58,247 bases of DNA. Source: an uncultured Chlorobiaceae bacterium. GTDB lineage: Bacteria; Bacteroidota; Chlorobiia; Chlorobiales; Chlorobiaceae. The translations under genes were made by a program, and so were the position numbers. Positions 7,801-9,382 of this stretch are shown piece by piece; position 1 is the first letter of the stretch; each line of letters opens with the position of its first letter. The stretch is taken from assembly GCA_903836465.1 (NCBI GenBank), contig CAILRB010000054.1:1-58247 (forward strand), given 5' to 3'. The notes under the pieces were generated by a model that did not search any database, was not told the DNA's origin, and saw nothing but the letters and a program-made list of their open reading frames with translations.

Positions 7801-7981
7801 CCGGAGCGAGGGGCGGCGGTCAGCCTGTTAACGAAAAGAAGATGCTGGCTGCCATGCCACGAAGCTGTGCGGCTGACGCTGGTTTGCTCATAAATGCGTA
7901 GTAATGATATATTCAACAACTGTAATACAGAAAGAAACAATCTGCTTTTTCCGTATTAGGCAGATCAGTCTAAACAATGTT
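7801..7981 (+). repeat. dispersed imperfect repeat, copy B (partner at 1101-1353)
   Basis: The 448 bases between hsdR and the DsrE-like gene hold no gene I can support. They contain the second copy of the element at 1101-1353 in the same orientation, with the three conserved blocks at 7801-7810, 7838-7865 and 7929-7981. It ends 49 bases before the GTG start of the next gene. The two copies flank the whole restriction-modification locus. Confidence 0.6.
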
Positions 7982-8030
7982 AGAAATCGATGTTTTCACC
8001 GAACGCATTTAAATTACTTAGGAGATTAAA

Positions 8031-8384
8031 GTGCATTACGTAATTCCCACAACTTGGGGCCCAACCGATATTACGCGTGGGGCGTTGCCATTTGTTTTCG
8101 CAAACTCTGCCCTTCAGGCTGGCGATACGGTAATGATAATGTTATTCCATGATGCGGTGACTATCGCGCTCGACGGAGCCCACCCCAAAATGATTCCGTT
8201 CGGCCCGCCTTCTCGATTTGAGGAGATTTTCTCTAACCCCAGGGCCCAAGTCATCGTGTGCAAGCCCTGCGCCGAGATTCGGGGTATTGAGGAACACATG
8301 CTGGTAAAGAATGCCTCTTTCGGAGGCATGAACGATCTTCATGCGCATGCATCGCGCCCTGACGCGAAGCTGATCAATTTCTAA
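8031..8384 (+). CDS. DsrE/DsrF-like family protein
   Basis: A 117-residue protein of the DsrE/F-like sulfur-relay fold. Features include the buried strands GDTVMIMLFHDAVTIALDG and the cysteine segment VIVCKPCAEIRGI followed by GGMNDLHAHA, the layout of small DsrE family members in which conserved Cys residues may handle persulfide. Start is GTG 8031 with AGGAG 9 nt upstream; translation begins MHYVIPTTWGPTDITRG. It stands alone with no dsr genes nearby, so the physiological partner is unknown. Confidence 0.75.
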   Translation: MHYVIPTTWGPTDITRGALPFVFANSALQAGDTVMIMLFHDAVTIALDGAHPKMIPFGPPSRFEEIFSNPRAQVIVCKPCAEIRGIEEHMLVKNASFGGMNDLHAHASRPDAKLINF

Positions 8385-8470
8385 TCCGGAACTTTGCTTG
8401 ACTCATGCGTAATGATGGTTATTCCTTATTTCCGCACGCTCAAAAGCAAGCCGAAAGAGCTGCAAACTGA

Positions 8471-9382
8471 CTACGGGACGAAGACAAGACGGAAGCCAAC
8501 AGAGTCGTCACGGTTCCCGGGGGCGTCGCCGCTGCGACCAGCCGACCGACAGTCTTCGGCGCCGCTGCTCCAGCTCCCGCCACGAATCACGCGGTCTGAA
8601 CCAGTTGCTGGACCCGAAGGATTAGTCACTGGACCATTCGCTTTACAATCGTCATAATAGGTTCCACCGAACCAGTCACTGCACCACTCAGAGACGTTGC
8701 CGTGCATGTTGTAGAGCCCCCACGCATTCGGAGCAAAACTGTTTACCGGAACCGTATTTTCTCTGTAGACCCCTTTCGGGTTGTTGTTGTAGGGAGAGTT
8801 GCCATCATAGTTTGCCTTTTCAGTCGTCAGGTTCTCTCCGCTATTGAACGGCGTTCCGCTTCCTGCACGGCAGGCATATTCACGCTCAGCTTCTGTTGGC
8901 AAACGGAAATGTTTCCCCGTTTTTGACGATATCCACATGCAGTAGGCTACAGCGTCATTCCAGCTCACATTCACAACCGGATGATTCTCTTCTCTCTGAG
9001 GTCGTTCACTACCCGACACGCCGTAATGCCAGTTTACTTCACGTAATTCTTCAGCTTTACCATCGGTGGAGACAATTACGCTGAAGCCATCTTTTTCAGC
9101 ATCTGTCCGGTACCCGGATGATTCGACGAATCTCCTGAACTCTGCAACCGTCACCGCATATCTGCTCATCGAAAAGTTACTCACCCGCACCTGATGCTGA
9201 GTCTCATTGCTTCGGCGATCAACCTCGCTCTCAGGACTGCCCATCGTAAACTCACCGCCTTTAATCAGCACAAAGTTTGCTGACTTAAAGAGTGCTGCCG
9301 TCGCAGGCACTGTTTCGCTGAAAAGCATCAACACCGCAAGAATAATAATGGGGGTGATGTCTCTAATGCTTTTTATTTTCAT
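8471..9382 (-). CDS. secreted SUMF1/formylglycine-generating-enzyme-fold protein, candidate diversified protein
   Basis: A 303-residue protein with an N-terminal signal peptide (about residues 10-30) and an FGE-sulfatase domain (PF03781). It shows FVLIKGGEFTMGSPESEVDR, the VNVSWNDAVAYCMW and FRLPTEAEREYACRAG motifs, WGLYNMHGNVSEWCSDWF and the C-terminal GGSW...GFRL motif. The paired active-site cysteines of true formylglycine-generating enzymes are not evident, so sulfatase activation is unlikely. The last 36 residues look like a C-type-lectin-fold variable region of a diversity-generating retroelement (separate entry). A ligand-binding periplasmic or surface role is inferred. Confidence 0.88.
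   Translation of the reverse strand: MKIKSIRDITPIIILAVLMLFSETVPATAALFKSANFVLIKGGEFTMGSPESEVDRRSNETQHQVRVSNFSMSRYAVTVAEFRRFVESSGYRTDAEKDGFSVIVSTDGKAEELREVNWHYGVSGSERPQREENHPVVNVSWNDAVAYCMWISSKTGKHFRLPTEAEREYACRAGSGTPFNSGENLTTEKANYDGNSPYNNNPKGVYRENTVPVNSFAPNAWGLYNMHGNVSEWCSDWFGGTYYDDCKANGPVTNPSGPATGSDRVIRGGSWSSGAEDCRSAGRSGDAPGNRDDSVGFRLVFVP
8474..8581 (-). other. candidate diversity-generating-retroelement variable region at the 3' end of the SUMF1 gene
   Basis: The coding end reads GGSW-SSG-AED-CRSAGR-SGD-APGNR-DDS-VGFRL. In known retroelement-diversified FGE-type proteins the same positions are AAC/AAT (Asn) codons in the template. Here they are AGC, GGC and GAC (Ser, Gly, Asp), exactly the products expected when template adenines are replaced. 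Variation is confined to these clusters between invariant anchors. No template repeat or retroelement reverse transcriptase was found by eye in the window, so this would be a remote target or a relic. Confidence 0.5.

Follow-up and report, generated by a model that had tools for sequence, protein, structure and literature searches.

The end of an FGE-sulfatase-fold gene in the 58,247-nt stretch of DNA analyzed here (the window, contig C54 of an uncultured Chlorobiaceae genome) is probably a former target of a diversity-generating retroelement (DGR), which was addressed in trans and is now orphaned, with its reading frame still intact. The homology of its variable repeat (VR) to template repeats (TRs) of the same genome, together with a bias of the changes toward template adenines, demonstrates at the level of sequence that the repeat is of DGR origin.

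The target gene and its variable repeat

The product of the target gene (Table 1) matches Pfam PF03781 (FGE-sulfatase; 1.2e-62) and, among PDB entries, both FGE and the TvpA protein of Treponema denticola (2y3c). Its N-terminus is hydrophobic and signal-peptide-like, as judged by eye, its C-terminus reads RVIRGGSWSSGAEDCRSAGRSGDAPGNRDDSVGFRLVFVP before the stop, and its nearest named relatives come from the Chlorobiaceae. Given that the first of the two catalytic cysteines is replaced (SSGAEDC, aligned to the SYMCHRSYC region of 6muj and 2q17), the sequence makes it unlikely that this protein is a formylglycine-generating enzyme (SUMF1).

Table 1. Coordinates of the target gene, its repeat and flank in the window, and of the template repeats in the same genome (G000)
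Feature	Location	Strand	Basis
Target gene (303-aa FGE-sulfatase-fold protein)	8471..9382	minus	ORF list, Pfam PF03781, PDB matches
VR, 132 nt, stop codon included	8471..8602	minus	alignment to TR_C94 and TR_C71
Variable codons AGC AGC GGC (template AAC AAC AAC)	8561..8569	minus	
Variable codons GAC GAC TCT (template AAC AAC AAC)	8501..8509	minus	
VR 3' element TGCAGCTCTTTCGGCTTGCTTTTGAGC, degenerate copy of the conserved element whose inverted complement follows the TRs	8438..8464	minus	
Region of the hairpin of TR-matched VRs; no such hairpin in window	8221..8437	minus	energy and stem scores
TR_C94	G000 C94:1077-1208		directly after RT
TR_C71	G000 C71:2757-2888		directly after RT
TR spacers (L117, L118)	G000 C94:933-1076; C71:2628-2756		

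The 3' end of the VR, TTCGTCCCGTAG, is the same as in the TRs and resembles an IMH. Against TR_C94, changes are found at 16 of the 29 A positions and at 13 of the 103 non-A positions (Fisher p=6e-6), and 11 of these 13 are silent; against TR_C71, they fall at 15/27 A and 15/105 non-A positions (p=3e-5). The best TR of the genus, from genome G038, gives 20/34 changed A positions against 8/98 others (p=7e-9), with all eight non-A changes synonymous, and 15 of 19 A-derived changes go to G, which lies inside the range of TR-matched VRs. A chance resemblance to a TR is ruled out by this A-specific excess, which also bears out the DGR substitution signature that an earlier note had read from this FGE-fold gene end. 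The anchors and the AGC, GGC and GAC codon clusters it described sit where it placed them, and its range of 8474-8581 falls inside a repeat that proved slightly larger (8471-8602). The VR thus has the excess of changes at A that marks DGR targets, and it lacks near-identity to its templates at the non-A positions, where it agrees with TRs at 86-92%.

DGR loci and remote targets in the genome

The genome (2.77 Mb, 107 contigs, 99% complete) holds seven reverse transcriptase (RT) places in an RVT_1 profile search, none of them on C54; neither a TR nor an RT was found in the window, as had been noted earlier. Two HRDC-type DGRs are located on C94 and C71, each with the RT followed by the TR, and in both of them an HRDC-domain protein overlaps an RT that bears the DGR-like motifs IGNLTSQ and YMDD. 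The closest PDB entry to this RT is 8ub7 (3.6e-39), which we take to be the BPP-1 DGR RT. The TRs encode GGSWNNNAENCRSA..., a short repeat reading GSNRVLRGGSWNNNAENCRSA...VGFRLVFVP, with Asn codons. A genome lacking both TR and RT, which the earlier note had named as fatal to its reading, was looked for and is not what was found, given that DGR-type RTs stand adjacent to TRs on these two contigs. In addition, bAvd-type DGR loci with A-biased repeat pairs of their own occur on C30, C90 and C12 (L124, L125, L128), some with targets of the FGE or NTPase type and the one on C12 with a truncated RT, so that at least five DGR loci are present in this single 2.8-Mb genome.

Six FGE-fold genes of the same genome, most of them on contigs other than those of the TRs, lie within 0-2 non-A changes of TR_C94 or TR_C71. 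Four of the gene ends match TR_C94, namely those on C73 (no change at 103 non-A positions), C94 (1), C50 (1) and C59 (2); the other two, both on C77, match TR_C71 with 0 and 1 non-A changes, the second with a codon gap. As the matched gene ends are spread in this way, a single TR serves genes on several contigs, and remote DGR targeting can be regarded, from these matches, as established in this genome.

The window VR has no perfect non-A match to any TR of its genome, and its 11-15 non-A differences rule out present service by TR_C94 or TR_C71. The proposal that this is a remote FGE-fold target addressed in trans therefore holds as history, given the TRs, the RTs and the other remote targets, and is not supported for the present, given these differences, the lack of a clean TR in the genus and the lack of a downstream hairpin.

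Drift from the templates and the missing hairpin

A survey of 65 genomes of the genus yielded 40 TRs and 87 VR-like copies, with non-A changes counted over a 123-base core minus its first six bases. For most of these VRs there is a TR that differs at no more than two non-A positions; for the window VR, no clean TR was found among the 65 genomes, the best having 6 non-A changes and the best in its own genome 11. Downstream of the TR-matched VRs stands a long hairpin; its loop contains GGGACG(A), which is CGTCCC, the end of the VR, in reverse complement. By stem count, this hairpin is present in 52 of 57 TR-matched VRs but in just 3 of the 16 that have drifted (p=4e-8, a value that overstates the independence of the VR copies, since these are related). 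The hairpins were scored by energy and stem scores, as a narrow loop motif had missed real ones. By these scores no hairpin follows the window VR, whose stem score is among the lowest. In BPP-1, the inverted repeat after the VR is required for efficient homing (PMC3240598), and partial activity persists without it (PMC12875486); by analogy, a VR without a hairpin may keep some activity.

It could be argued that the gene is still an active remote target, its cognate TR and RT lying in sequence that the assembly misses. At 4.5 and 5.6 kb, the contigs that bear the TRs are tiny, and two others, C53 and C31 (L301, L300), end in exactly the same 141-bp type-C TR spacer, which suggests that the assembly has collapsed a further DGR copy; both are signs of unresolved DGR copies and, given the 107 contigs, a third TR may be unassembled, although none was found intact in the assembly. 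This reading is nonetheless rather improbable, in view of the missing hairpin, the lack of any TR within 5 non-A changes among the 65 genomes, the scattered and mostly silent non-A changes, and an assembly that is 99% complete. The genome also contains a TR 3' spacer without a TR (C59:291-369), which, together with the contig-break overlap made of another spacer, indicates that the cognate template was probably lost, or is possibly unassembled.

The ortholog and the paralogues

A syntenic ortholog (L222/L037) in another Chlorobiaceae species adjoins the same NAD(P)H-dehydrogenase-like gene, has drifted too, with 7 non-A changes, and shares with the window VR the truncated 3' junction GGAAATAAGGA after the VR element. 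The two genes are 41% identical at A positions and 82% in the body, which means either that diversification went on after the split or that the starting alleles were different, although the junction without a hairpin is common to both. That the VR was instead gained by gene copying, or by transfer out of a relative whose TR is a different one, and never diversified in its present genome, would fit the fact that the best TRs belong to other species (G038, G048, G060) and that the non-A changes are silent except for one, but this is very unlikely, as the position of the ortholog argues for vertical descent.

At non-A sites, the window VR is 85-87% alike to the paralogues on C86, C59, C77, C50 and C73, whose gene bodies are 64-71% alike to that of the window gene, while at A sites the likeness falls to 28-55%. 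With non-A sites more alike than the body and A sites far less, homing is indicated, and not shared descent alone. FGE-fold proteins often end in Asn/Asp/Ser-rich stretches near GFR, and this gene might thus be an ordinary FGE-family paralogue under diversifying selection whose likeness to TR codons is a habit of the family, but such a reading is hardly credible given a non-A match to TRs of 86-92% where the paralogue bodies are 63-71% alike, the A-specific excess, and the TTCGTCCCGTAG end and flanking 3' element common to the window VR and the TR-matched VRs. As far as the origin of the sequence is concerned, the TRs identified contradict a plain sequence habit.

According to the favored reading of an orphaned target, an HRDC-type DGR encoded elsewhere (RT, HRDC protein and a TR with Asn codons) would have produced cDNA with random bases at template A, which would have replaced the end of the window gene in trans, a step that follows the example of the DGR family, with A-specific replacement read from the sequence. 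The deletion of the downstream hairpin would date from before the divergence from the ortholog or from about that time, the cognate TR would have been lost or replaced, and silent changes would have built up at non-A positions under selection for an intact reading frame. We infer this order of events, and the lack of present activity at the window VR, from the comparisons above.

The inverted flank of templates and targets

The TRs are followed by CTCAAAAGCAAAGTCGGATGACTGCC or a variant of it, the inverted complement of which stands a few bases past the stop of the VRs. The type of this flank agrees with that of the TR matching the VR body in 37/37 cases for type A, 7/7 for type B, and 2/3 with one tie for type C, and real pairs score 14-20, as against at most 12.5 for shuffles. 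On the other hand, a few VRs with type-C bodies have an A/C-like flank (G041 L203, G058 L232), so the match of flank and TR type is not absolute. The TR spacer itself is a conserved structured RNA of ~145 nt in which 7 pairs show changes in both partners, and for which an Rfam search returned no matching family. The same flank core is present in a second genus of Chlorobiaceae; it was not seen in the sampled DGRs outside this family, and no description of it was found in a limited selection of the literature. A wobble test, weak because of its few columns, gave 34 wobble-compatible changes and none of the A-C kind, but also 15 T-U mismatches.

The inverted flank is possibly an RNA-guided target address. 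It is a tentative and rather doubtful proposal that, in the HRDC-type DGRs of Chlorobiaceae, the 3' spacer of the TR RNA would base-pair with the coding strand just after the cognate VRs, with types A, B and C each addressing their own targets, that the hairpin would be required for homing, and that targets such as the one in the window would be retired once this address module is damaged or deleted. Alternatively, the flank may be a site for a protein, placed in inverted orientation, or may reflect joint inheritance.

Relation to known systems

Remote targets, HRDC proteins and leftover targets have already been described for DGRs (PMC4891356, PMC10907252, PMC3521204). The DiGReF survey (PMC3521204) described DGRs of Pelodictyon and Chlorobium with A-specific changes and two to four VRs per DGR; the present case shares with these the green sulfur bacterial host and the A-specific changes, and differs from them in a window VR that has neither a template match nor a hairpin, and from the survey, in which VRs were sought near the RT, in targets located on other contigs. 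In the TvpA DGR of T. denticola, which belongs to a different phylum, the HRDC accessory gene overlaps the RT gene, and there are remote targets as well as leftover targets of a replaced DGR (PMC4891356); the HRDC/RT overlap, the remote and leftover targets and the FGE-like fold of the variable protein (2y3c) all resemble the situation described here. A term search of that paper gave no mention of a downstream hairpin or an inverted flank. Thiohalocapsa PB-PSB1 likewise has several DGRs per genome, and a full non-A match to a distant TR is taken there as trans activity (PMC10907252), a match that the window VR does not have. The likeness to the BPP-1 DGR (PMC3240598, PMC12875486) lies in the RT homology and in the inverted repeat that follows TR-matched VRs, although BPP-1 uses Avd and an 8-bp stem, where the Chlorobiaceae systems have HRDC and a long stem with a GGGACG(A) loop.

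On how DGRs find, gain and lose their targets, this genus offers a natural experiment, with dozens of remote targets, matched or drifted, in which the absence of the hairpin tracks the loss of the template match. An orphaned DGR target can be recognized by silent drift at non-A sites.

Other features

In three species (L223 on C40 of G048, L150 in G056, and L218 in G045), the VR element ...TTTTGAG is immediately followed by the stretch CCTCCCGTAGCCTACCGG..., as if an insertion sequence targeted the site right after this element. In G048, the VR copy is seemingly frameshifted and is followed, behind CCTCCCGTAGCCTACCGG..., by an IS110-like transposase gene (IS110 being named by eye). A dispersed motif of ~60 bp (AGAAAGAAAC..TCTGCTTTTTC.G.ATTAGGCAGATCAGTCTAAACAATGTT), possibly a shared regulatory site, occurs in the window at 7926-7984 and 1301-1353 and in many genomes of the genus. 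At the edge of the window, positions 64-139 match a group II intron (Rfam RF00029).
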